Shown in pieces: positions 770-43,674 of a DNA stretch of 53,095 bases. This DNA is from Oscillospiraceae bacterium (GTDB lineage: Bacteria > Bacillota > Clostridia > Oscillospirales > Ruminococcaceae), in contig JAGAJF010000151.1 of NCBI GenBank assembly GCA_017829005.1, positions 1-53,095 of the forward strand, written 5' to 3'. The notes under the pieces are model-generated. The model ran no database searches. It was not told the DNA's origin and saw nothing but the letters and a program-made list of their open reading frames with translations. Position numbers and translations under genes: made by a program. How positions within the stretch are numbered: the first letter of the stretch is position 1; each line of letters starts with the position of its first letter.

Positions 770-2881
770 ATGACAAGCTGCTACGATAACAGAGAGCTTA
801 GCTGGCTCAAATTCAACGTCAGAGTGCTTGAGGAGGCAAGGGATAAGTCTGTCCCTCTCTGCGAAAGGCTTCTGTTTTCACAGATATTCCAGTCTAATTT
901 AGACGAATTTTTTATGATAAGAGTAGGCTCCCTCTGCGACAGAGTCCTCGTTGACGACAACAAGGAGGACAATAAAACGGGTATGACTCCCGAGGAGCAG
1001 CTCAAAGCCATCTACAAGCGTGTTAAGGAGCTTGTTCCCGTAAAGGACGAGGCATATTTTAATACCATAAAGGAGCTTGAGAAAATTGGCATCGAGCACG
1101 TGAAAATATCCTCCCTCACCGCCGAGGAGGAAGGGTATCTCAGAGCCTATTTCAATTCCGAGATACGTCCCCTTATCTCCCCCCAGGTGGTGGATAAGCG
1201 TCACCCATTCCCGTTTCTCAAAAATAAGGAAATTTACGCCGTTACCCACCTTGAGTCCAAAAACTCCGTCAAGCTGGGAATAATCCCCGCAGGCGGCAGC
1301 TTCCCCCGAATAATCCCCCTGCCCGACAAGAGTCGTTTCAGATTTTTGCTTGCGGAAGATGTGATACTCCACTACTGCGGCAGCGTTTTTGAGAATTACC
1401 GTCTGCTTGACAAGGCACTTATCCGCATAACCCGAAATGCGGATATCAATATGGAAGAGGGGCTTTACGACCACGAGGTAGACCTGAGACAGGTCATGGA
1501 GGAGCTTCTCAAAAAGCGCAAAAAGCTTGCTCCCGTCCGTCTTGAGATATCGGGAGATCTGGGAAAGGAAGCGACGGAATTTCTCTGCCGTCAGCTGGAG
1601 CTTGACAGTCATCAGATATGCGGCTGCACCGCTCCCCTTGATATGAGCTTTGTATTCTCCCTCCGAAACAGGATAGAAAAGGCTCACCCCGAGATGTTCT
1701 TTGAGCCTGTTTCACCCCGTCACAGCGCTTCCATATCACGCAATGTGCCTATGATAAGCCAGATTCTCCGAAGGGATATCCTGCTTTCCTACCCCTATGA
1801 GAGCATACGCCCCTTCATTCAGCTGCTTATCGAAGCAGGAAACGACCCCGATGTAATCTCCATAAAAATAACCCTCTACCGTGTGGCATCAAACTCCAAG
1901 ATAGTTGAGGCTCTCATAAACGCCGCGGAAAACGGCAAGGAGGTTTTCGTCCTTGTGGAGCTGAGAGCCAGATTTGACGAGGAAAATAACATTGAATGGT
2001 CGAAACGTCTCGAAAGAGCGGGCTGTAAGGTAATGTACGGTCCCGAAAATCTGAAGGTGCATTCCAAGCTTATGCTCATCACCCGTAAAAACGGCTCCGA
2101 GCTGCAGCACATCACCCAGATAGGAACAGGCAACTACAATGAAAAGACCTCCGAGCTGTACACCGACCTTTCCCTTATGACCGCCGACCCCGAGATCGGC
2201 GAAGAAGCGGGAACGGTATTCAATGCCCTGTCTATCGGAAATCTTGTGGAAAACACCTCGCATCTTTTAGTGGCACCCCTTTCCCTCCAGAACAAGATAA
2301 TCGACTTTATTGACGTGGAAATTGCCGCTGCAAGGAGCGGAGAAGGTGGATACATCGGCTTAAAGCTCAACTCCCTTACAGATAAGATACTTATCGACAA
2401 GCTTATCGAAGCAAGCTGTGCAGGCGTTAAGATAGAAATGGTTATCCGAGGAATATGCTGTCTTGTTGCAGGCGTTCCGGGTATGACGGAAAATATCACC
2501 GTCAGAAGCATTGTGGGCAGATATCTTGAGCATTCGAGGATATACATATTCGGTAAGGACAACAAGCAGCGGATATATATTTCCTCTGCAGACTTTATGA
2601 CCCGAAACACCCTGAGACGTGTAGAGGTAGCCGCACCCGTAAATTCTCCCGAGCTTAGAAAAAGGGTACTCCACATATTTGATATAATGCTTCGTGACAA
2701 CGTCAAGGCAAGGATACAGCTTCCCGACGGAAGCTACGAGAGGATATCTCCTGCCGAGGGAGAAGAACCTCTTACCGCCCAGCAGTATTTCATTGACGAG
2801 GCAGCCGAAGCTGCAGCTTCGGCTGCTCTGAAAAAGCCTGTTAAGGTGAAGGTGAGACGGCGTAAGAAGGTCGGAAGGTAA
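770..2881 (+). CDS. ppk1: polyphosphate kinase 1
   Basis: Transfers the gamma-phosphate of ATP to inorganic polyphosphate. The 703-residue length and order match PPK1: an N-terminal helical domain (LLFSQIFQSNLDEFF), a head domain with HPFPFLKNK, then two phospholipase-D-like C domains. His431 (in KVHSKL) and His588 (in YLEHSRIYIF) are spaced exactly like E. coli His435 and His592, the phosphorylated and general acid/base histidines. I chose ATG 770 over the upstream in-frame GTG 737 because GTGAGG at 755-760 lies 9 bases before 770 and the extra residues are only lysine-rich. The tail is basic (KVKVRRRKK). Apparently monocistronic, with a terminator 50 bases downstream. Confidence 0.95.
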   Translation: MTSCYDNRELSWLKFNVRVLEEARDKSVPLCERLLFSQIFQSNLDEFFMIRVGSLCDRVLVDDNKEDNKTGMTPEEQLKAIYKRVKELVPVKDEAYFNTIKELEKIGIEHVKISSLTAEEEGYLRAYFNSEIRPLISPQVVDKRHPFPFLKNKEIYAVTHLESKNSVKLGIIPAGGSFPRIIPLPDKSRFRFLLAEDVILHYCGSVFENYRLLDKALIRITRNADINMEEGLYDHEVDLRQVMEELLKKRKKLAPVRLEISGDLGKEATEFLCRQLELDSHQICGCTAPLDMSFVFSLRNRIEKAHPEMFFEPVSPRHSASISRNVPMISQILRRDILLSYPYESIRPFIQLLIEAGNDPDVISIKITLYRVASNSKIVEALINAAENGKEVFVLVELRARFDEENNIEWSKRLERAGCKVMYGPENLKVHSKLMLITRKNGSELQHITQIGTGNYNEKTSELYTDLSLMTADPEIGEEAGTVFNALSIGNLVENTSHLLVAPLSLQNKIIDFIDVEIAAARSGEGGYIGLKLNSLTDKILIDKLIEASCAGVKIEMVIRGICCLVAGVPGMTENITVRSIVGRYLEHSRIYIFGKDNKQRIYISSADFMTRNTLRRVEVAAPVNSPELRKRVLHIFDIMLRDNVKARIQLPDGSYERISPAEGEEPLTAQQYFIDEAAEAAASAALKKPVKVKVRRRKKVGR

Positions 2882-2932
2882 TTTTGATTTTCAGTTCCAA
2901 TTGAAATAATGCACGTTTTAAAAGTATGACAT

Positions 2933-2964
2933 AAAAAAGCACCCTGTTCCCAAGGTGCTTTTTT
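2933..2964. terminator. bidirectional intrinsic terminator
   Basis: Perfect 11-bp inverted repeat (2933-2943 with 2954-2964; AAAAAAGCACC/GGTGCTTTTTT) around a 10-base loop. The A tract on one side and T tract on the other let it serve both ppk1 and the leftward gene ending at 2967. Confidence 0.9.
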
Positions 2965-2966
2965 AT

Positions 2967-3221
2967 TCAGCTTTCAAAAACGATAGTATTTCCTTTTGCT
3001 TTAAAATTAACCGGAATGTCACCGTGTATCATTATCCAGGGCATTCCGCCATTTCCGAAACAATTACGTGTCTTTTCAACCACAAAGTCAGAGGTGGAAA
3101 AAAGCCTCTGCTCCGAATCGATTATTTTCAGTATTTTTGAATCAAGGAAGTTTCCGTTATATTCGGAACAATCTAATACAGTATCGTTTCCGATTTTTGT
3201 TGCATTAAGTATCATACACAT
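2967..3221 (-). CDS. small hypothetical protein, second gene of cassette
   Basis: An 84-residue protein of unknown function, rich in Ile, Asn and Asp, with no membrane segment. An AAGGAG element 8 bases upstream favours ATG at 3221 over the overlapping GTG/ATG codons at 3230 and 3227. It follows the gene at 3227-3688 with only 5 bases between stop and start, so the two are probably co-transcribed from the promoter at 3708-3736. A toxin-immunity or enzyme-inhibitor pairing is a guess from layout only. Confidence 0.6.
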   Translation of the reverse strand: MCMILNATKIGNDTVLDCSEYNGNFLDSKILKIIDSEQRLFSTSDFVVEKTRNCFGNGGMPWIMIHGDIPVNFKAKGNTIVFES

Positions 3222-3226
3222 GATCA

Positions 3227-3688
3227 TCACTCCTTGAAAATATATAGATCATTTTTTACATCTTTAAGCTTAATGTCATTATTTTTAAGTCTGGAAACTG
3301 CGTCACGGTATAAGGTCATTCGTTCGGAATAACTCAGACCCGAAGTGAATTTTGCTGCTCTGATGCTGGCTTGTGCTTCTTCAAGCACTTCGTCAGGGTG
3401 TGTTTTCCCGGCTAATGCAGCCTTTCGGTGTCCGATCAGCTCATGAGCTATTGCTCCGTGCATTGAAATATTGCTGTTTGCATTTTTCTGACGTTCGCTT
3501 GACGGAAAAACATCAGTACCTATCCTGAGCAGATCAAAAGAACAGCCATAGCCTGTGCAGTCATAATCAACATAATAAATTCTCTCCTCGGGCATACCCA
3601 AAGAAACTGCATATTGTTTTACTTCAGCAAATTGCTCTTCTGTCAGCGGCACTTCATTTCTTCTCCCGCCGGTGTTTACTTTCAGCAT
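3227..3688 (-). CDS. hypothetical protein with HELIGH motif
   Basis: A 153-residue soluble protein, start chosen at ATG 3688 because an AAAGGTGG element lies upstream; an in-frame ATG further up would lie on the -10 box. The centre carries HGAIAHELIGHRKA, with two histidines and a glutamate as in metal-dependent hydrolases, but the spacing is H-E-x3-H, not the classic H-E-x2-H. The C-terminus is helical and charged. I do not recognise the family. It is the first gene of a two-gene cassette between ppk1 and the rRNA methyltransferase, pointing away from the latter. A toxin-like enzyme is possible but unproven. Confidence 0.6.
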   Translation of the reverse strand: MLKVNTGGRRNEVPLTEEQFAEVKQYAVSLGMPEERIYYVDYDCTGYGCSFDLLRIGTDVFPSSERQKNANSNISMHGAIAHELIGHRKAALAGKTHPDEVLEEAQASIRAAKFTSGLSYSERMTLYRDAVSRLKNNDIKLKDVKNDLYIFKE

Positions 3689-3707
3689 TCTGTCACTTCC
3701 CACCTTT

Positions 3708-3736
3708 ATCATACCACTCCCGCCGCCGTTTGTCAA
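3708..3736 (-). promoter_or_regulatory. sigma-70-type promoter of the HELIGH cassette
   Basis: On the minus strand: TTGACA (3731-3736), a 17-base spacer, TATGAT (3708-3713) with an extended TGG. About 45 bases including the ribosome binding site resemble the promoter at 13658-13685. Confidence 0.85.
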
Positions 3737-3814
3737 GCCCTGCCGCTACAGCTTTTGCGTTATATTGCCATACAATCGCCCCCGTGATAAGCGGTATTTT
3801 TGTTAATATCCCTA

Positions 3815-3843
3815 TTGAAAAACCACAGCGTATGATGTATAAT
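3815..3843 (+). promoter_or_regulatory. promoter of rlmB-like gene
   Basis: TTGAAA (3815-3820), 17-base spacer, TATAAT (3838-3843), 64 bases before the start codon. Confidence 0.8.
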
Positions 3844-3906
3844 ATATTAGTATAGGAAAATATGCTTATTTGCCGCAGACTTCCTGCGGCGGATCGGAGA
3901 TAATTT

Positions 3907-4785
3907 ATGGCATATCAGCGTTTTGATAAAAATAAAGGAAGAAGCGGCGGCAGGAAGGACTTTTCCAAGCCCAAAAGCTTCACAAAGCCCGAAAGGAGCT
4001 TTGACACACCCGAAAGAAACCTTCCCGACGCTGCCGACAGAGAAGAGACTGCAGGTCTTATTGTTGGCAGGAACCCCGTTATGGAGGCTCTCAAATCGGG
4101 CAAGGCTATCGACACCATCTATGTCAACAGCGAGGCAGGGGGCAGCATTGGTGCTATCACCCGTATCGCCAGAGAAAAGGGCATTGTTATAAAAAATGTC
4201 AGCGATCAGAAGCTCACTCAGATGTGCGCAGGAGCATCTCATCAGGGCATAATCGCCTCGGGAGCCTGTGCGGAGTACGTTTCCGTTGAGGACATTCTGA
4301 ACATTTCAAAGAAAAAGGGCAAGGCTCCCTTTATCATAATCTGCGACGAGATCGAGGACCCTCACAATCTTGGCGCAATAATCCGTACCGCCGAGACCGC
4401 AGGCGCAGACGGGGTGATAATTCCCAAGCGCAGGAGTGCGTCACTTAACGCAACCGTTTACAAGACCTCCGCAGGAGCCGCCAGCTGGCTCCCCGTTGCG
4501 AGGGTGGCAAATCTGGGTGCGGCAATGGACGAGCTCAAGAAAAACGGCGTGTGGATATACGGCACCGATGCGTCGGGCAGCGACTACACCGAGGCTGACT
4601 TTACGGGTCCTGCCGCATTCGTCATCGGCTCTGAAGGCTTCGGCATAGGCAGGCTTGTAAAGGACAAGTGCGATTTTCTTGTAAGGCTCCCTATGTTTGG
4701 AAAGATAACATCTCTCAACGCCTCTGTTGCCGCAGGAATTTTTATGTACGAAGCGGTAAGGCAGAGAACGGCGGCAGGAAAGTAA
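3907..4785 (+). CDS. rlmB: TrmH/SpoU-family 23S rRNA (guanosine-2'-O)-methyltransferase
   Basis: Uses S-adenosylmethionine to methylate a ribose 2'-OH, in the RlmB family on the 23S rRNA G2251 equivalent. Residues 1-45 are a basic, glycine-rich tail. The substrate-binding domain starts at IVGRNPVMEAL. The SPOUT catalytic domain shows motif 1 DPHNLGAIIRTAETAG (about 151-166, with its Asn and Arg), motif 2 FVIGSEGFGIG (about 238-248) and motif 3 ITSLNASVAAGIF (about 267-279). The GGAGAT site before ATG 3907 fixes the start. The exact rRNA target is inferred from the family. Confidence 0.9.
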   Translation: MAYQRFDKNKGRSGGRKDFSKPKSFTKPERSFDTPERNLPDAADREETAGLIVGRNPVMEALKSGKAIDTIYVNSEAGGSIGAITRIAREKGIVIKNVSDQKLTQMCAGASHQGIIASGACAEYVSVEDILNISKKKGKAPFIIICDEIEDPHNLGAIIRTAETAGADGVIIPKRRSASLNATVYKTSAGAASWLPVARVANLGAAMDELKKNGVWIYGTDASGSDYTEADFTGPAAFVIGSEGFGIGRLVKDKCDFLVRLPMFGKITSLNASVAAGIFMYEAVRQRTAAGK

Positions 4786-4867
4786 GCCGTCACGCCGAAA
4801 ACGAACAGAGCTTTGTTAAAATAACACTTGCACCGGCAAAGCTCCCGAGAAAGGCAGGGTAATAAAT

Positions 4868-7864
4868 TTGTCTGATAAATTTTCCCTTGACGAAATACTG
4901 AACGAATACTCGGGCAGCGGCAGCGGTTCATCGGGTCAGTCCTTAGACGATATCCTGAACAGCTATCCCGCTACCAAAAATTACGAGGATTCGGGGCTTG
5001 CAGAGATCTTTGACAGCAGAAGCTCCACAACCGATATAGATCTGAGCGGAATAAACATCTCAATGCCGGGAGACTACCCCTCTCCCGAGGAGATAAGAAA
5101 GAAAAACGCTCCCGTATCCGTCCACGATATCCCCGAGGAACAGCTCACCGAGGAAGAACGGATAAAGAAAAGCAAGCAGATAGACTATGAGATCATAAGC
5201 GGCGATTACGACCGCAAATATATGCCCGACGAGCTTAAAACCGAAGCGGAGCTGAAAGCGGAGGGAAAGGTCTCTGCCGATGAAGAGCGCTCCGAAAAGG
5301 ACAGGGCTTCAAAGAAAAAGGTGAAGGTAAAGCCTGCAAAGAAGAAATTCGGGCTTGACCTTGCCGACGGTCTCAAGGGAGTACATTCCTTTGAGGACGA
5401 TGATTTCGATAAAAAATACGGCAGCGCTCCCTTGTTCACCGCCGCCGACCGCGACGAGCTTATCGGCGAAGAGGAGCATGAAATACCCTTTGAAATTAAG
5501 CCTCCTGTGGGCTCCAGCTTGTCGGAAAAGCTTGAAAGAGAAGCGGAATTTGCCGAGAAATACAATGACGTACCCTCTTCTGCTCCGAAGCACGAGCATA
5601 AGGTCAGACCCGAAAAGGTAACGCCAAAGCGTGAGGGCGGGGCATATCCTCTTCCCGAGCATAAAAACGACCCATTTGACAAATACGCTGCAATAGACGA
5701 CCTTGACAGTATTCTCGGTCAGTACGAAAAGATAGAGCAGCCTATGACCCTGAAACGTTCGGATACCTCTCCCCTTAAAGGCTTTACGGATATTTTCAAC
5801 AAGCTTATGGCAAAGGAAGAGGCAAACGGCGAAGGCTCCGAGCTTCTTGAGGACAGCAGGAAGATAAAGCGCTCCGAGGGGGCTATCGAGAGGAAAAAGA
5901 TATCCGATATCGGTCTTGATCTTTCCGACAAGATGATACAGGACACCTCTCAGATAAACACCGACAAAACAAGCGCAGAGCTTGAAAAGCTGAACGCTCT
6001 CAAGGAGCGCAGAAGCAAGAAGATAAAGGATTTCGTCCTTGTGGGGGACGAGGAGGAAAATACTCCCGACGAAGCGGCTCAGTCTGAAGAAGCCGAGGAG
6101 CTTGAGGACTTTGAGAGCCTTGAGGACGCTCCCGATATCCAGAACCACATTGCAGGGCAGAAAAGCAAGCTTGTTTTCAGACTGATAATACTTTTCGCCT
6201 GCTTTGCAGTCACCACATATATGGCTGTGGCAAATGATTTCAAGCTGCCCATTCTCGACTCCTTATCCCTTATCGACAAGAGGAGCCAGACCGATGTTTT
6301 CCTGTTCATAAACAGCGTTATCGGCGTGGTTGCGGGCTTTGTGGCATCCCAGACCATCTCCGGGGGAATATCAAAGCTGCTGTCCGGCAAGGCTGACTGC
6401 GATTCCCTGTCGGCAATGGCGCTGATATCAAGCCTTCTTACATCAATGATATCCCTTGCGGACTCAAATATGGTGCGCGGCAGCTTTGTATATATCTACA
6501 CCCCCGTTGCCATCGGCGCACTTATATTCAACACCATAGGCAAGCTGCTGATAATTAACCGTACACAGCGAAGCTTTTCCTTCATTTCGGGAGATAATGA
6601 CAGGTATGCCCTGTTTGTATTGAACGATGAGGAAAAGGCTCAGAATTTCACCCGCGGCTCCCTGTCGGATTTTCCCGTTCTTGCAGGTATGCAGAAGACC
6701 GAGGTCATCACCGATTTCCTCAAGACCTCCTATGCAGGGGACAGCACCGACCGCTTCTGCAAAATGGTCTCACCCATTATCGCCATAGCGGGACTTGTCC
6801 TCGGAGTTCTGGCAGGACTGCTCTCAAGAGCCGAGCATGGCACAATGGGCGCATTCTGCGTGGGACTTTCCACATTTTCCGCCTGCGCCTCCATCTGCTC
6901 CTGCTTCGGAATGATGCTGGTGGTAAATCTGCCCATGGAGAAGGCTTCGGCAAAGTACGGCGCAAAGCAGGGCGCCATAATCGGATTTGACAGCATTGAC
7001 GAATTCGGCGACGTAAACAGCGTAATGATAGACGCCGCTGCCCTCTTCCCTCCGGGAAGCATTATCCTGAGAAACATCAAGTCCTTCCCCGACTCAAGCA
7101 TTGACGAGGCGATAGTTGAGGCAGCAAGCCTTACCAGCCAGTCGGGAAGCATTCTCAGGAATATGTTCTACGATATAATCGTGGGCAAAACGGAAATGCT
7201 GGAGCCTGTGGAAAGCTACATTTACGAGGACTCAATGGGTCTTTGCGGCTGGATAAACAACAAGCGAGTGCTTCTCGGAAACAGAGAGCTTATGCAGAAC
7301 CACAGCATCGAGGGACTGCCCTCCATCGCCAAGGAAAGCGAATATACCGACGGTGACAAGATAGCGGTCTATCTCTCCATTTCGGGACAGCTTTCGGCAA
7401 TGTTCATCATTGAGCTTACCCCCTCTTATCAGATAAAATCCGCACTCAAGGAGCTTGAGAAAGGTGGCGTGGCAGTAATGCTCCGCTCGGTGGACTCAAT
7501 GCTCTCGGTAAGCAGGCTTTCGGAAATGTTCGAGGTAACTCCTGCACTTTTCAAGCTTATCCCATTCAGACTTCACCCCGATTTTGAAAAGACCACCGAG
7601 TACGCCGCAAGACGGCCTGCCACTCTTGTATGCTCGGGAAGATTTGCCTCCTTTGCCCAGCTTATTTTAGGCGCAAACAGGCTGAGGGGCACCATTTCCG
7701 CGGGCATTGCAATGCAGGCGGCGGAGATACTTCTCGGAATACTTCTCACCCTTGCTCTTGTGCTGCTGCGCTCAATGGCAGAGCTTACGGTAACGAATAT
7801 CCTGCTTTACAATTTTGTTTTCGTAATGCTTTATTTTCTTTTCCAGGCATTCAGAAAGGTATAA
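4868..7864 (+). CDS. large membrane protein resembling a catalytically dead P-type ATPase
   Basis: A 998-residue protein from a TTG start at 4868 after AGGCAGGG. Residues 1-430 are charged and probably disordered, with two SLDEILN/SLDDILN repeats near the start and KKKVKVKPAKKK-type basic clusters. About eight hydrophobic segments follow in a 6+2 pattern (near 435-456, 470-495, 505-525, 535-560, 633-655, 660-690, then 946-967 and 977-995), matching P1B-type ATPase topology. The soluble part between looks like P and N domains (for example WINNKRVLLGNRELM). Where the DKTGT phosphorylation motif belongs, the sequence reads DAAAL, starting at Asp722. No cysteine metal motif (CPC) is seen. Probably a non-transporting structural or regulatory protein; role unknown. 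Confidence 0.7.
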   Translation: MSDKFSLDEILNEYSGSGSGSSGQSLDDILNSYPATKNYEDSGLAEIFDSRSSTTDIDLSGINISMPGDYPSPEEIRKKNAPVSVHDIPEEQLTEEERIKKSKQIDYEIISGDYDRKYMPDELKTEAELKAEGKVSADEERSEKDRASKKKVKVKPAKKKFGLDLADGLKGVHSFEDDDFDKKYGSAPLFTAADRDELIGEEEHEIPFEIKPPVGSSLSEKLEREAEFAEKYNDVPSSAPKHEHKVRPEKVTPKREGGAYPLPEHKNDPFDKYAAIDDLDSILGQYEKIEQPMTLKRSDTSPLKGFTDIFNKLMAKEEANGEGSELLEDSRKIKRSEGAIERKKISDIGLDLSDKMIQDTSQINTDKTSAELEKLNALKERRSKKIKDFVLVGDEEENTPDEAAQSEEAEELEDFESLEDAPDIQNHIAGQKSKLVFRLIILFACFAVTTYMAVANDFKLPILDSLSLIDKRSQTDVFLFINSVIGVVAGFVASQTISGGISKLLSGKADCDSLSAMALISSLLTSMISLADSNMVRGSFVYIYTPVAIGALIFNTIGKLLIINRTQRSFSFISGDNDRYALFVLNDEEKAQNFTRGSLSDFPVLAGMQKTEVITDFLKTSYAGDSTDRFCKMVSPIIAIAGLVLGVLAGLLSRAEHGTMGAFCVGLSTFSACASICSCFGMMLVVNLPMEKASAKYGAKQGAIIGFDSIDEFGDVNSVMIDAAALFPPGSIILRNIKSFPDSSIDEAIVEAASLTSQSGSILRNMFYDIIVGKTEMLEPVESYIYEDSMGLCGWINNKRVLLGNRELMQNHSIEGLPSIAKESEYTDGDKIAVYLSISGQLSAMFIIELTPSYQIKSALKELEKGGVAVMLRSVDSMLSVSRLSEMFEVTPALFKLIPFRLHPDFEKTTEYAARRPATLVCSGRFASFAQLILGANRLRGTISAGIAMQAAEILLGILLTLALVLLRSMAELTVTNILLYNFVFVMLYFLFQAFRKV

Positions 7865-38424: not shown

Positions 38425-38619
38425 ATGAAAATAAAACTCAGAACAGTAGCAGAGATGGTCGCAGAGATTAAGCAGTCGGATCCTGAGTCCCCTATCAGTG
38501 AATGCTATCTCAGGAGGTTACTGAAGCAGAAGGAAATTAAAATGTATACTTCCGGAAGACGAATTTTTGTCAATGCATCCGAAGTGTATTCATATTTCGG
38601 CGAGGAGGTAGAAAGGTGA
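38425..38619 (+). CDS. small HTH/excisionase-like protein
   Basis: 64 residues with a winged or MerR-like helix-turn-helix (ECYLRRLLKQKEIKMYTSGRRIFVN), typical of Xis-type and regulatory proteins of mobile elements. The ribosome binding site AAAGGAGGTGA is near perfect. It ends by a GTGA overlap with the primase gene. It may bind the operator upstream or assist excision; neither is shown. Confidence 0.75.
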   Translation: MKIKLRTVAEMVAEIKQSDPESPISECYLRRLLKQKEIKMYTSGRRIFVNASEVYSYFGEEVER

Positions 38620-39965
38620 GTCAGGACTATTTATTCGAAGATAAAAACGGGAATGTCAGAATAAATCGCGCTGTTCTTGCACAGGAAATAATCAGGACTC
38701 ACCATATTCTCGGATTTCGCTCCTCGGAACGCAGCGGATTGAGTATTTACACGTATGGAAATGGTGTCTATATTTTGACAGACGCTACAGCAATTAAAGG
38801 GATGATCCAGGATGCAGTTAAGGACTCAGCACCTCAGTTGCTGACCATAGGGTTGCTGAAAGAGGTACTCGAGTTCATCAAGATCAATATGGAAATAAAA
38901 AATCTTGAACTAATGGATTCAGATGAGGATATTATCAATTTCCGGAATGGATTATATCACATTAGCAGCGGATGTCTGACTCCTCATACTCCCAATGTTC
39001 TCTCCTCCATACAGATCCCATGCAACTATAATGGTAGCGCATCGCCACCAGAGACATTTAACTCTTATCTTACTACTCTCTCTTCAAGAAACGCTGATAC
39101 TCAGCGGGTTATCCGTCAATTTTTGGCAGCCTCTATATCCAATATTTATGGGTACCGGTTCAAAAAGGCTTTATTTTTGATTGGCCCTGGTAATACTGGA
39201 AAATCACAAATTCGGCAGTTGGCAAACTACTTAATTGGCGAACGAAACTGCTCATCTCAGGACATATTCCAGATGGAATCACGGTTCGGACCAGCTGGCT
39301 TGTATGGAAAGCGGCTTGCAGGAAGCGCTGACATGTCATATTCATCCATAAGGGCGCTTGATATATTTAAAAAACTCACCGGTGGAGATAGCATCTTTGC
39401 CGAATATAAAGGTATCAACGGCTTCGATTTCATTTACAGAGGACTGATTTGGTCTTGCGGAAATGCAATGCCTGAGTTCGGCGGTGATCATGGCGAATGG
39501 GTTTATAATCGCATGATCATCATCGAATGTAACAATGTTATTCCTGCCGATAAGCAGGACAAGCGGCTGCTGGAAAAACTCAAGACTGAAAGCGAAGGGA
39601 TTGTGGCTCAGTGCATGGCAGAACTGCGAGGACTAACTGCTCATTATTCCTTTCATCTAACTTCCGAAATGAATAGGAAACTCGAGGAATATCGAGGCTG
39701 CAACGATCCAGTTGTTGATTTTTTTCAGAGATGCTGTGAAATGCGATCTGCGCTTTCTACAAAATTCAGCGGTAATACTTCAAAAGAAATATATGATTTT
39801 TTCCTTATTTGGTGCGAGGAAAATTATTCCGGTGCTAAGATCAAAAAATCCGATTTTCGCTCAAGAATAGCTGGTTATCTGAAAATGAGGAGGGATGATA
39901 TTATAAAAAAGGAATGTGACAATACATATTTCATATTTGACCTTCGAAAAGATCTCGATATTTGA
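38616..39965 (+). CDS. phage/plasmid primase-helicase (P4/D5 type)
   Basis: 449 residues from a GTG start overlapping the HTH gene. The D5-like N-terminal region precedes a superfamily 3 helicase: Walker A GPGNTGKSQI (about residues 191-200), then GKRLAGSADMSYSS and a C motif SCGNAMPEF. The C-terminus holds a winged-helix-like segment (DFFQRCCEM). It would open and unwind the element's origin during autonomous replication. Followed at 39972 by a 16-bp inverted repeat. Confidence 0.88.
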   Translation: MSQDYLFEDKNGNVRINRAVLAQEIIRTHHILGFRSSERSGLSIYTYGNGVYILTDATAIKGMIQDAVKDSAPQLLTIGLLKEVLEFIKINMEIKNLELMDSDEDIINFRNGLYHISSGCLTPHTPNVLSSIQIPCNYNGSASPPETFNSYLTTLSSRNADTQRVIRQFLAASISNIYGYRFKKALFLIGPGNTGKSQIRQLANYLIGERNCSSQDIFQMESRFGPAGLYGKRLAGSADMSYSSIRALDIFKKLTGGDSIFAEYKGINGFDFIYRGLIWSCGNAMPEFGGDHGEWVYNRMIIIECNNVIPADKQDKRLLEKLKTESEGIVAQCMAELRGLTAHYSFHLTSEMNRKLEEYRGCNDPVVDFFQRCCEMRSALSTKFSGNTSKEIYDFFLIWCEENYSGAKIKKSDFRSRIAGYLKMRRDDIIKKECDNTYFIFDLRKDLDI

Positions 39966-39971
39966 TGGAAA

Positions 39972-40027
39972 AATGGAAAAAATGCATTTAATTTTTTGAG
40001 CAAAATAAAATATGCATTTTTTCCATT
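39972..40027. repeat. 16-bp perfect inverted repeat between primase and mob genes
   Basis: AATGGAAAAAATGCAT (39972-39987) and its exact complement at 40012-40027, with a 24-base AT-rich loop and no T tract after it, so not a normal terminator. Candidate origin of replication or transfer. Confidence 0.7.
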
Positions 40028-40126
40028 CCTTTCAAATGATTTCGTTGTATATGCTGCTTTATGGGCGTATATCATAATGTAAAAAATGCAAATTTGGGCA
40101 AAATTGTGAAAAAAAGGAGGATGAGC

Positions 40127-40720
40127 TTGAAAAAAACAATCTCTCATGTTCAAGGCAAAGGCTGCATATCTCATAACAACAGGGCTTTCATACCTAAGAA
40201 CGTTGATCCTTTAAGAACAAAGGAAAATATTACATATGTCAGCATGGAAATTGGCTCTGCGTATGATTTTCTTTTCAGCAAACCTGTGGAAGAGTATAAT
40301 TCCAAGCAAAAGCGCTCCGACAGGAAAATCAATGTTAGCTACTTTGAACATTTATTCAATCGAACTCCATGTAATACAGTGATAGAGTCTGCAAACGGAC
40401 AGAAAAGCTTCTATGAAGATGTTGTTCAGATTGGAACTAAAGACGATACCGGAATAGGTTCGTCAGATGCGGAAACAGCCAAATTATGCCTTGATGAGTA
40501 TATGAAAGGCTTTCAGCAACGAAATCCGTATTTTTATGTTTTCAATTCGGTTCTGCATATGGATGAAGCTACTCCCCATCTGCATATCGACTATATTCCC
40601 TTCGGACACTATTCAAGAGGTATTTCGGTGCAGAATGGCATTGCGCAGGCACTTGCAGAAATGGGCTTCGGTACTACCAGGGTTTGCCTTATATTGCTGA
40701 AGGAACACATTTACGCCTAA
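40127..40720 (+). CDS. truncated Mob/Pre-type relaxase
   Basis: 197 residues starting with TTG 40127, 6 bases after AGGAGG. The N-terminus KKTISHVQGKGCISHNNR and the metal-binding HLHIDYIP motif (about residue 160) match the Mob/Pre family of plasmid relaxases. Full proteins are roughly 400-500 residues; here the match stops near GISVQNGIAQALAEMGFG and the frame then ends in about 15 unrelated residues. Probably a 3'-deleted remnant; the metal site alone may be kept but the full nicking domain is doubtful. Confidence 0.75.
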   Translation: MKKTISHVQGKGCISHNNRAFIPKNVDPLRTKENITYVSMEIGSAYDFLFSKPVEEYNSKQKRSDRKINVSYFEHLFNRTPCNTVIESANGQKSFYEDVVQIGTKDDTGIGSSDAETAKLCLDEYMKGFQQRNPYFYVFNSVLHMDEATPHLHIDYIPFGHYSRGISVQNGIAQALAEMGFGTTRVCLILLKEHIYA

Positions 40721-41105: not shown

Positions 41106-41411
41106 ATGTCAGAACAGACATTAGTACAGTTTAGAGTTGATAACGAATTAAAGCGTGATGTTACGGAAATTTATGAAGCGATGGGACTTGATCTTCCTAC
41201 TGCGCTCAGAATGTTTATGGCTCGCAGCAAAATGGTGAGAGGTATTCCTTTTGATACCACATTACCGGATAACATTCCTACTCGCACAGATGCTTTGAAA
41301 GCTTTTAATGATATGAGAAATTGCTGTTCACAGCTTCCGGAAATGACTCTTGACGAAATCAACGCTGAGATCTCGGCTGCAAGAGTTGAGAGAAAGGCGT
41401 GCTCAGAATGA
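41106..41411 (+). CDS. RelB/DinJ-family antitoxin
   Basis: 101 residues. The N-terminal ribbon-helix-helix (TLVQFRVDNELKRDVTEIYEAMGLDLPTALRMFM) is typical of RelB/DinJ proteins; the acidic C-terminus (DEINAEISAARVERKACSE) would wrap the toxin. ATG 41106 follows CAGGAGGTGG. It overlaps the PIN toxin start by 4 bases. DinJ-type antitoxins normally pair with RelE-like toxins, so pairing with a PIN toxin is less usual. Confidence 0.85.
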   Translation: MSEQTLVQFRVDNELKRDVTEIYEAMGLDLPTALRMFMARSKMVRGIPFDTTLPDNIPTRTDALKAFNDMRNCCSQLPEMTLDEINAEISAARVERKACSE

Positions 41412-41827
41412 AGTGTTGTGCAGTAATTGACACAAATGTTGTTATTTCAGCTATCCTTACCAAAAGAGAGGATTCAGCTACCGTCAAAGTAATCAATGCT
41501 GTTCTTAGCGGAATGATCACTCCATTGTATCATAAAGATATCCTTGCTGAATATGAGGAAGTTATGCACAGACCAAAATTCCATTTACCCGAAGAAAAAA
41601 TTCAAATTATTATAAATTCTATTAAGGAATATGGTATTGAGGTCTTCCCTACCCCAACCGGAGAGATACTTATTGATATGGATGATTTGATTTTTTATGA
41701 AGTAGCTATGGAAAAGCGTGACAGCGGAGCATATTTGGTTACCGGAAATCAAAAGCACTATCCAATCAGAGATTTTATAGTAACACCTTCGGAGATGATG
41801 GAAATACTTGGAAACATGAAGCTTTAG
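41408..41827 (+). CDS. PIN-domain toxin
   Basis: 139 residues of the PIN-family putative toxin group. Acidic residues that would bind Mg are Asp8 (VIDTNVVISAIL), the glutamate in EYEEVMHRPKF, and the aspartates in DMDDLIFYE and RDSGAYLVTGNQKHYP. Such proteins cut RNA when free of antitoxin. ATG 41408 is chosen over GTG 41399, which sits on the AGAAAGG site. Second gene of the operon, overlapping the antitoxin. Confidence 0.85.
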   Translation: MKCCAVIDTNVVISAILTKREDSATVKVINAVLSGMITPLYHKDILAEYEEVMHRPKFHLPEEKIQIIINSIKEYGIEVFPTPTGEILIDMDDLIFYEVAMEKRDSGAYLVTGNQKHYPIRDFIVTPSEMMEILGNMKL

Positions 41828-41921
41828 AACAAATATTATCAATTATTAATCCTTTGATTGATGCTCAAAAGCTGAGAAACCAACATATTATTCCTAAAAT
41901 ACTTTTTAATCAGTTATTATG

Positions 41922-41976
41922 AATACAAATAAACTTCTCATATTCACATGTATGTGGGGAGTTTATTTGTATTTTT
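41922..41976 (+). terminator. terminator of the toxin-antitoxin operon
   Basis: Perfect 14-bp stem AATACAAATAAACT (41922-41935) with AGTTTATTTGTATT (41960-41973), followed by TTTT. Confidence 0.85.
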
Positions 41977-41984
41977 GGTTCTGC

Positions 41985-42380
41985 AAAAAAATTTAAAAGG
42001 GAGAAGCTTTGCCGCAGCGAAAGTCATCTCCCTTTAGTGATTGATTTTTCCGTTGTCCGCCAACTTTCCGTCCCACAAGTACGGCATTAGTATCTTGTCA
42101 CCTTGCGGATCCTCGCATACAAGCCTGCCAGCTGCGTTCACGCTGTTCGCAGCGAGCGTCGGATTTTTATCGTGTCAACCTCACGTTTTAAAGCATATTT
42201 TCTTTTCAGCATTTCTGCCTATTCAGGATTTGGCTCATATGCAAACCATACGATAAGCTCCATCTTGCCGTTGCCTGACCAGCCTCAAGACTTCATCACT
42301 TAGTAAACTGCTACGACTGTTAAGTTTCGTCAGCTTACCCGGCAGCTCCTGCTGCCTGCTCAACACTATTCGTGCTGCTG
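41985..42380 (-). ncRNA. structured RNA unit A
   Basis: Leftward transcript of about 390 bases from promoter 42386-42414 to the terminator hairpin AAAGGGAGA/TCTCCCTTT (41996-42004 with 42027-42035) and its T tract. The first 150 bases match unit B (43428-43640) and share hairpins: CAGCAC/GTGTTG (42372-42377 with 42361-42366), GGCAGC/GCTGCC (42351-42356 with 42341-42346), GTAA..CTG/CAG..TTAC (42338-42331 with 42310-42303) and TCTTG/CAAGA (42290-42286 with 42267-42263). A possible 35-codon ORF (42141 to 42034, GTG start, no ribosome binding site) and further hairpins lie in the 3' half. Family not recognised. Confidence 0.65.
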
Positions 42381-42385
42381 TTATT

Positions 42386-42414
42386 ATTATAAACCCCAAA
42401 ATCATAAATGTCAA
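42386..42414 (-). promoter_or_regulatory. promoter of RNA unit A
   Basis: Minus strand: TTGACA (42409-42414), 17-base spacer, TATAAT (42386-42391). Confidence 0.9.
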
Positions 42415-42460
42415 GTAAAATACAAAAAATATATACCTAAACTACGTATTATTAACAGGT

Positions 42461-43385
42461 CTATTGTGCTAAAGGCATTAAAAGCATTTCAAAGCTATTC
42501 TTCATTTGTTTCAGAATAGCTTCTTTTCTAATATCTGAAATGATAAATATTTCGACTGAATTGCTATTGATAATTTTCTCCGGAGTTTCCATAATAAGTT
42601 TTGTTATTTCCTGCATTTTCTCATTCATCAAGGGAATATTATTTTCTATTGCGCTAATAAAGCACTTATCCTTCGAAAATTTTTCAATAAACTCTTCAGC
42701 AGATAATGCTTTGCCGTTTGAAGTGTATGCAGTCATTATTCCGATAGAAAGATCAGTAAATTCAGACTTGGTAATTATTTCTCTTATTTGTTCATCAGAC
42801 ATACGAAGTTCAAAGCAATTACCGTTGCTGTAAATTGGGGGCAGAAACAGCTGCATTATCCTTTTGACGAATTATTCCCCAGTTATCATTATATCTGCAA
42901 GCATTACCAATAAAAATATCAACAATAGCCTGTTCAAAAAATTGCCTTTTTATGTTCGGAATTTCTTGAAGAACGGGGTTGTTATCAAAATGAAACATAA
43001 GCTCATCGACATCATTTCCCGAATAATTCCTCAAAGACAAATCTATATCCGCTGTTTCGATATGAACATTCTTGATAGTTTTCATTTCCATAAGAATCCT
43101 GCCATTTGTGGCAAAATCCTCACAGCCAACCACTAAAGTGTTGTTTCTGATACCTAAAATCGTATTCTGAACATCATATCCCAATATATCATAAATATGA
43201 CTTCCTATATACTCGGATACCTGATAAGAGGAGTAAGCTTTAGCAGAATTTTCAAGTTTTCTATGCGGATATTTGACCAGCCATTCTTTATTATTGAATA
43301 TAATTCCTTCTTTTTTTCTTGAGCCGCCGTATGAAGCATTTTTATAACTTAACATACATTCATCTAAATCATAAATGGGTGTCAA
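42461..43385 (-). pseudogene. HipA-like kinase, frameshifted and active-site degenerate
   Basis: Two overlapping frames (43385-42819 and on to 42461) join into one HipA/CtkA-like kinase if one base is removed from the G5 run at 42837-42841 (C5 in the coding strand); the joined reading gives SAPIYSNGNCFEL. A TTG start at 43385 follows AAAGGAGG at 8 bases. Besides the frameshift, the catalytic loop reads GNACRYNDNWG, with Cys163 where DRH-type kinases have the catalytic Asp, and SNG where the metal-binding Asp (APIYDNG) belongs. So even a repaired protein would probably not phosphorylate. Lies between the two RNA units. Confidence 0.75.
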
Positions 43386-43427
43386 TTTCCATTCCTCCTT
43401 TGAGATATTCTTTATATTATAAATAAA

Positions 43428-43456
43428 AAAGCCCTTGTGTATTCCACAGGAGCTTT
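43428..43456 (-). terminator. terminator of RNA unit B
   Basis: Imperfect stem AAAGC..TTGTG with CACA..GCTTT; on the minus strand followed by TTTTTTATTT. Lies 43 bases before the kinase start. Confidence 0.75.
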
Positions 43457-43640
43457 ACGCATATTTTTGTTCGGAGGATACTCCTATTCGTGCCATGGCT
43501 CATATGCAACCATCAGATAAGCTCCATGTGCGGTCGCACGAATAAGCGCACACTTCATCACTTAGCAGTCCGCTACGACTGTAAAGTTTCGTCGTTCTGC
43601 TCGGCAGCTCCTGCCGCCTGCTCAACACTTTGTGTTGCTG
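43428..43640 (-). ncRNA. structured RNA unit B
   Basis: Leftward transcript of about 210 bases from promoter 43646-43674. Hairpins: CAACAC/GTGTTG (43637-43632 with 43628-43623), GGCGGC/GCTGCC (43618-43613 with 43608-43603), ACGAC/GTCGT (43595-43591 with 43579-43575) inside AGCAG/CTGCT (43601-43597 with 43568-43564), and TGTGCG/CGCACA (43552-43547 with 43532-43527). Highly conserved with unit A between hairpins (GAAACTT.ACAGTCGTAGC; TGGAGCTTATC; GCATATGAGCCA). A 25-codon ORF (43563 to 43486, GTG-ATG start, ending EPWHE) lies inside but has no good ribosome binding site. The RNA ends directly before the HipA-like pseudogene, so it could be its leader or independent. Confidence 0.65.
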
Positions 43641-43645
43641 ATATT

Positions 43646-43674
43646 ATTATATCGGATCATCTTGAGAAAGTCAA
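43646..43674 (-). promoter_or_regulatory. promoter of RNA unit B
   Basis: Minus strand: TTGACT (43669-43674), 17-base spacer, TATAAT (43646-43651). Confidence 0.9.

Follow-up and report, generated by a model that had tools for sequence, protein, structure and literature searches.

Type III toxin–antitoxin systems are the closest described counterparts of the arrangement reported here. In ToxIN, CptIN and TenpIN, a single promoter is followed by a pseudoknotted RNA, a terminator and a toxin gene, as outlined for type III organisation in PMC5086642. The antitoxin RNA is given as a series of repeats of 34–50 nt (PMC12373285), and the toxin of ToxIN is ToxN. A comparable pair is the AbiF system of C. 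difficile, in which an Rfam motif, abiF RNA (RF03085), lies upstream of an abortive-infection protein that it is reported to neutralize (PMC12373285). Type III antitoxin RNAs can also travel without a toxin, as reported for the pseudo-ToxI of phage phiTE (PMC3475682). A term search of a microbiome survey of structured RNAs upstream of ToxN returned no mention of drum (PMC8040213).

The window analysed here, a 53,095-nt stretch of DNA from an Oscillospiraceae bacterium, carries two copies of drum, an RNA that is itself catalogued while its function is not. Drum was reportedly first described by Weinberg in 2017. Its Rfam entry (RF02958) lists it as an sRNA gene, and the literature consulted names no toxin partner. 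Additional covarying pairs and a predicted K-turn have been reported for it (PMC7657543, PMC11974997). What is new here is the apparent pairing of drum with PBECR4 (PF18813). In the literature searched, whose scope left out most subscription journals, PBECR4 was absent by name and no title or abstract paired it with drum. Drum was likewise absent there in connection with type III toxin–antitoxin systems and Rfam, the original description of drum being outside that scope.

Unlike the short repeats of type III antitoxins, drum mostly comes as a single unit of some 112 nt; a second RNA class described below (class II) has two repeats. In contrast to ToxN of ToxIN, the PBECR4 proteins gave no ToxN match here, and with respect to AbiF both the protein family and the RNA family are different. 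Drum and class II are also of other RNA classes than the phiTE pseudo-ToxI, and are known here from sequence alone.

Two drum units on the minus strand

The original prediction placed two transcription units on the minus strand of the window, each with a consensus promoter (17-base spacer) and an intrinsic terminator, and both elements can indeed be read from the sequence of either unit. The features of units A and B, and of the kinase gene beside unit B, are as follows.

42386..42414, minus strand: unit A promoter, −35 TTGACA at 42414–42409, spacer of 17, −10 TATAAT at 42391–42386 (from sequence)
42302..42379, minus strand: unit A 5′ domain with short hairpins (alignment A7, pair checks)
42190..42301, minus strand: drum RNA A with pseudoknot TCAGG/CCTGA (Rfam RF02958, 61.0 bits)
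42036..42183, minus strand: class II RNA, 3′ of drum A in the same unit and without a match in Rfam 15 (model R2, which has the window in its training set)
about 41985..42033, minus strand: unit A terminator, GC-rich hairpin and T-run (from sequence)
43646..43674, minus strand: unit B promoter, TTGACT at 43674–43669, spacer of 17, TATAAT at 43651–43646 (from sequence)
43564..43639, minus strand: unit B 5′ domain (alignment A7)
43456..43563, minus strand: drum RNA B with pseudoknot TTCGTGC/GCACGAA (Rfam RF02958, 53.7 bits)
about 43420..43455, minus strand: unit B terminator, GC-rich hairpin and T-run (from sequence)
42819..43385, minus strand: CtkA-like kinase, first part, 91% identical to residues 1–184 of an intact 307-aa relative in genome G015
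42461..42856, minus strand: CtkA-like kinase, second part in another frame, 87% identical to residues 182–307 of the G015 relative

The RNA family had not been recognized in the original prediction. A cmscan search of the whole window matched both units to drum over the full model, with E values of 4.9e-09 (A) and 2.5e-07 (B) and scores above the gathering score of 43 bits. Our own model R1 gave 66.2 bits for drum A and 55.3 bits for drum B, both copies being part of its training set. The 5′ hairpin domain, which is common to unit A, unit B and same-genus units (alignment A7), lies outside the Rfam model. These two drums were the only ones found in the draft genome of the window (G000). At E ≤ 0.001, Rfam drum was retrieved from 3 of the 20 genomes in the genus sample, 8 of 295 in the order sample, 19 of 391 in the class sample and 3 of 398 in the phylum sample; these samples, all of which contain the genome of the window, overlap. 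Copies can cluster, two within about 1 kb in genome G012 and three within 2 kb in G015.

The base changes between A and B proved compensatory, as predicted. The helix GTAA/TTAC of unit A corresponds to GCAG/CTGC in B and to GTAG/CTAC in a third copy; across seven aligned same-genus units, four formed 4/4 pairs and three formed 3/4. The TCTTG/CAAGA helix of A was also kept, with 5/5 pairs in five units and 4/4 in two B copies from which one pair is deleted. The first helix, with G-U in A and A-U in B, is formed in five of the seven units and lacking in the two from G012. A pseudoknot, overlooked in the original prediction, showed 5/5 pairs in every one of the seven. These units are not independent, since A and B of the window and A and B of G015 are near copies. 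The further claim that reading frames are not conserved held in G012, where the frame is interrupted; however, the five units of the window lineage share a similar short 5′-domain frame, reading ..LSRxQEL..TKLxSRS..LLSDEV...

Across 35 drum cores, five named helices had 88.3% of their cells paired (68.1% when shuffled, at most 42.6% when slid), the helices having been chosen on the same alignment on which they were tested: RNAalifold returned the pseudoknot helix only, and the nested helices were therefore named by hand. The covariation score was 0.619 (shuffled 0.251, slid at most 0.159). Pairs with a two-sided change numbered 17 against 15.1 in shuffles, a value reached in 75 of 500 and the sole one of five measures that did not beat the shuffles. 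The pseudoknot, formed between the P2 loop and a 3′ strand, had 93.8% of its cells paired and two-sided changes in 6/6 pairs. A function at the RNA level, argued for in the original prediction, is thus supported by the Rfam matches, by covariation in 35 relatives and by the occurrence of additional copies close to mobile elements and to genes resembling toxins.

PBECR4 genes behind drum

In the downstream regions that were read, a small gene lies some 40–60 nt behind drum. Four of four such proteins matched Pfam PF18813 PBECR4, with E values from 1.6e-16 to 2.1e-31, and none of the four matched ToxN in Pfam. PBECR4 is a nuclease family by its Pfam name, from which a putative RNase activity is taken; a sequence search of the PDB gave no relative at E ≤ 0.5, the two matches beyond that (E of 0.59 and 0.71) being unrelated.

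Among 40 drums found by RNA alone, two of them below the gathering score, a PBECR4 gene or remnant was detected by HMM within 300 nt downstream in 21, so that drum may have other roles as well. Two of the 19 drums without an HMM match have a remnant recognizable by eye (L029) or only 64 nt of contig left (L040). The remaining 17 are solitary; five of them belong to the window lineage, and genome G927 contributes four that are nearly identical. Both window-type units of G012 have PBECR4 behind them according to the HMM, one as an intact frame and one broken.

Searches from the protein side gave 80 PBECR4 loci, 79 from a scan with six drum-linked proteins and one viral locus from a ten-protein set. 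Rfam drum was found at the gathering score in 69 of the 80, always on the plus strand and in 68 cases within 150 nt upstream; this count is free of training overlap but not of query bias, since drum-linked queries favour drum-linked relatives. Model R1, for which part of the 80 loci served as training set (both R1 and R2 were run partly on their own training loci), placed drum within 150 nt upstream in 72, at a distance of 2–119 nt and mostly of 43–60 nt. By R1, drum was absent from seven of the 80 loci, namely L107 and L126 at contig edges, L125, which lacks the N-terminal part, and L132, L152, L155 and L156, which appear, in part from reading by eye, to be truncated, rearranged or degenerate.

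When the frame was long (at least 160 codons), drum lay within 150 nt in 64 of 68 loci, compared with 8 of 12 loci with a short frame. The long-frame exceptions are four. In L094, drum is 1.5 kb away across an insert that by eye resembles an insertion sequence; the contig of L107 extends 57 nt upstream of the gene; L132 starts at residue 15; and L155 is degenerate upstream, with no start codon seen. The RNA is commonly seen without the toxin and a long toxin frame seldom lacks the RNA, which is the asymmetry expected of an antitoxin and its toxin.

A sample free of drum-linked query bias was provided by Pfam, which gave 30 PBECR4 matches in 28 of the 391 genomes. An adjacent drum reached the Rfam gathering score in 11 of the 30, and a twelfth (L069) stood exactly at the cut-off. 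With R1 at E ≤ 0.001 the number was 18, of which 13 belong to the R1 training set. Class II was found by R2 in six, of which five had served to train R2 and the remaining one is a near copy. The last six of the 30 are L055, truncated and with no RNA seen, L057 and L067, with repeat pseudoknots by eye, and L053, L068 and L070, which were left unassigned. Counted by genome, drum was present in 19 of 391, PBECR4 in 28 and both in 14, against an expectation of 1.4 (p = 2e-14). By the Rfam matches, one of which falls short of the cut-off, the two are neighbours in 12 of these 14 genomes; in G720 and G906 they are separated.

The modules have a uniform layout, in a set of 72 loci that includes many close relatives. 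In 71 of the 72, the 120 nt upstream of drum contain a sigma-70-like promoter with a score of at least 10 of 12 (mean 11.49, shuffled 8.31), and in 70 the stretch from drum to the PBECR4 gene contains a hairpin followed by a T-run (7.6 in shuffles). No promoter of at least 10/12 was found in the gap between drum and PBECR4 in any of 71 loci tested. Apart from PBECR4, any one protein family recurred in at most 4 of 43 neighbourhoods. As in type III systems, the sole promoter stands before the RNA, a rho-independent terminator follows, and a pseudoknot is indicated by covariation. Drum is single in all but three (L104, L110 and L123) of 76 matched loci, and the extra copies there are separate units; in L110 (3275–3767), two extra drum units with their own promoters and terminators by eye lie behind the drum–PBECR4 module. 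Type III toxins are ToxN-family endoribonucleases, whereas all four proteins above are PF18813 PBECR4. The window itself departs further from the type III plan, with no PBECR4 gene behind unit A and a broken kinase gene behind unit B.

Other RNAs may stand before PBECR4 as well. Loci L067, L057, L053, L068 and L070 have further candidate RNAs upstream of the gene, and in L067 two hairpins can be seen by eye, each with a loop complementary to bases 3′ of the hairpin.

Class II RNA and copies without a toxin

A second clade of PBECR4 is preceded by a different RNA, here called class II, which has a GTTG...CAAC hairpin in two repeats, the loop base-pairing with a strand that lies beyond the hairpin. 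The loci searched gave no Rfam 15 family for this RNA at E ≤ 0.5. Pairing words picked by hand were examined in 15 copies. The closing pairing was formed in 60/60 cases, a value that 8 of 10,000 shuffles attained (their mean being 54.7); the outer loop pairing was formed in 60/60 (shuffled mean 49.1) and the inner loop pairing in 59/60 (shuffled mean 27.8, highest 43). Further patterns added the full-length match L208, which was found afterwards and has by eye a new complementary inner word pair, and then another 28 loci. Among these 28, L213, L220 and L225 match the 3′ part of class II (23.2 bits) and three more do so weakly; all six were left out of the counts. In a PBECR4 tree of 68 rows, a single change is enough to separate drum from class II; the tree is a quick one with long branches, four rows with other RNAs were set aside, and L057 was labelled class II though it has no R2 match.

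Unit A contains both RNAs. A profile of 14 class II copies from outside the window matched 42094–42036 on the minus strand by nhmmer (E = 7.3e-10, next best 1.3), which makes unit A a drum followed by a class II RNA. The class II motif itself is at 42043–42064, with 0 matches in 100 shuffles. This second RNA (42183–42036) had escaped the original prediction, and no terminator between it and drum A was seen on reading the sequence. The same combination of drum and class II was found by R2 in two units of G015. An HMM search gave no PBECR4 behind the combined units of the window or of G015, and Pfam found none in the draft genome G000.

Both kinds of module occur on mobile elements. PBECR4 with drum is present on plasmids of Enterococcus and Streptococcus suis, with drum at E ≤ 0.001 in all four records examined among the 21 matched, and PBECR4 with class II is present in the Erysipelothrix phage phi1605. 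The class II motif was detected in ten viral contigs, five of which continue with PBECR4 and five of which lack it in the fetched flanks (about four and four distinct, respectively). L208, on a 137-kb viral contig, is a further class II RNA without PBECR4 in the fetched flanks. In L171, a 93-kb viral contig, class II without PBECR4 lies in a tRNA array together with ROOL and DUF3800-XI RNAs (1456–7393), and the DUF3800-XI RNA, too, may be a copy lacking its toxin. A strict drum pattern had 0 matches in viral contigs, and the viral PBECR4 locus L079 has a weak drum of 30.8 bits. Two solitary drums have phage-like surroundings: that of L204 lies about 20 nt behind an endolysin-like gene, and that of L205 lies beside a homing endonuclease gene with phage-like genes near. 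The pseudoknot is kept in solitary drums in 60 of 66 cells, compared with 137 of 144 in the others.

Possible roles and setting of the units

The structure of these RNAs is conserved, RNA and PBECR4 gene form a two-part module with a fixed order of promoter and terminator, the RNA class follows the toxin clade, and the modules are present on plasmids and phages. On this basis, drum and class II are probably type III-like RNA antitoxins of PBECR4, and the units of the window would be stand-alone copies that could protect their host element. Under the mechanism that we infer, one promoter would produce the drum or class II RNA in excess, the terminator would allow a small number of polymerases to continue into the PBECR4 gene, and the pseudoknotted RNA would bind the PBECR4 protein, presumably a toxic RNase, and hold it inactive. 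The window units could then serve as antitoxin RNAs of a mobile element against PBECR4 toxins of other elements, in anti-addiction or counter-defence; by analogy with the phage pseudo-ToxI acting against ToxIN, such a stand-alone decoy role seems the most likely for them. Whether the whole amounts to a new branch of toxin–antitoxin systems, in which PBECR4 is combined with at least two unrelated pseudoknot RNAs, toxin-free decoys are carried by mobile elements and phages, and unit A is bivalent against both clades, is a more tentative proposal, about which we are somewhat doubtful.

The units of the window might instead be remnants whose toxin was lost or replaced and which are still transcribed but functionless. 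The absence of a PBECR4 match from G000, the broken kinase frame and the DDE transposase gene behind the last unit of G015 would agree with this. We regard it as rather unlikely, given that the differences between A and B are compensated, that promoter, helices and pseudoknot are kept, and that G015 has three such units. The position of drum, 2–119 nt upstream of the gene with a terminator in between in 70 of 72 loci, is also what would be seen if it were a cis-acting leader, attenuator or riboswitch-like, controlling read-through into PBECR4. Yet class II occurs without PBECR4 in the fetched flanks of five of the ten viral loci and of L208, 17 of 40 drums are solitary, and these keep their pseudoknot; a leader role by itself thus appears distinctly unlikely. 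An RNA may combine leader and antitoxin roles, and abiF RNA is reported to do so (PMC12373285). Base pairing of drum with the toxin mRNA, as in type I systems, would fit an RNA that adjoins the toxin gene, but is hardly credible: over 39 loci the own mRNA had a mean rank of 0.50 and was the best target in two, and drum lies on the same strand as the toxin gene and is not antisense to it.

The neighbouring kinase deserves separate consideration. The original prediction described the pair of units as flanking a HipA-like kinase gene; a kinase gene does adjoin them, but its product is CtkA-like, and the gene is split over two overlapping frames. It starts 71 nt behind drum B and is broken, whereas G015 has an intact frame of 307 aa, 65 nt behind its drum B and with a terminator-like stretch in between. 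The G015 protein matches CtkA (3akj, 8.7e-25) and PADLOC PDC-M03A (1.6e-24). This order, the same in the window, would suit drum B as the RNA antitoxin of the kinase, in which case drum would serve two unrelated toxins. A kinase match was found in 31 of the 391 genomes, that of the window included, and in 30 other kinase loci (29 and L077) neither drum nor class II was detected at E ≤ 0.1, the best value being 0.2 (L188); the kinase was accordingly rejected as a general partner of drum, while PBECR4 loci mostly have it. The link of drum to the kinase is confined to one lineage. Relatives of these CtkA/HipA-like, PDC-M03A-type kinases have a similar small ORF directly upstream, rather than drum, in 12 of 19 cases (by eye, upstream side only), and of two such ORFs compared with Pfam one (L194) is an HTH protein and the other had no match. 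In the window and G015, drum B stands upstream of the kinase in place of the small ORF. With none of 30 loci having drum and 12 of 19 having the small ORF, drum is not claimed here as the antitoxin of the kinase, and we hold that role to be very unlikely.

Type III-like antitoxins of PBECR4 remain the reading that we prefer. It would offer a testable function for drum, an orphan among catalogued RNAs, and for PBECR4, a family of proteins known just by name. The type III plan would gain a toxin other than ToxN, served by at least two RNA classes, and phage-borne antidote RNAs would be pointed to as a means of counter-defence. It may be worth asking of other orphan RNAs that precede small genes whether they are antitoxins.

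Several further observations concern the surroundings of the units. The small ORFs upstream of the kinases in L177, L179–L181, L185, L186, L188 and L190–L194 share a C-terminal motif by eye and are candidate protein antitoxins of PDC-M03A-type kinases; no close relatives of the kinase were found in viral contigs. In G015 (locus L011, about 1930–2160), a promoter–hairpins–terminator unit can be seen by eye between two drum units, with no Rfam match at E ≤ 0.05. Weak Rfam matches in the window at 41919–41976 and 42465–42563 (mir-299, SNORA48 and others) are far below the family thresholds and were discarded. Directly beyond unit A, at 41106–41827 on the plus strand, a RelB antitoxin gene and a PIN-domain gene form a type II toxin–antitoxin pair; the pair and the drum units together have the appearance of a toxin–antitoxin cluster on a mobile element. 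Matches to D5-like/DUF5906 and Mob_Pre at 38616–40720 (plus strand) suggest an integrated mobilizable element. A long inverted repeat at 41920–41976 lies between the PIN gene and unit A.
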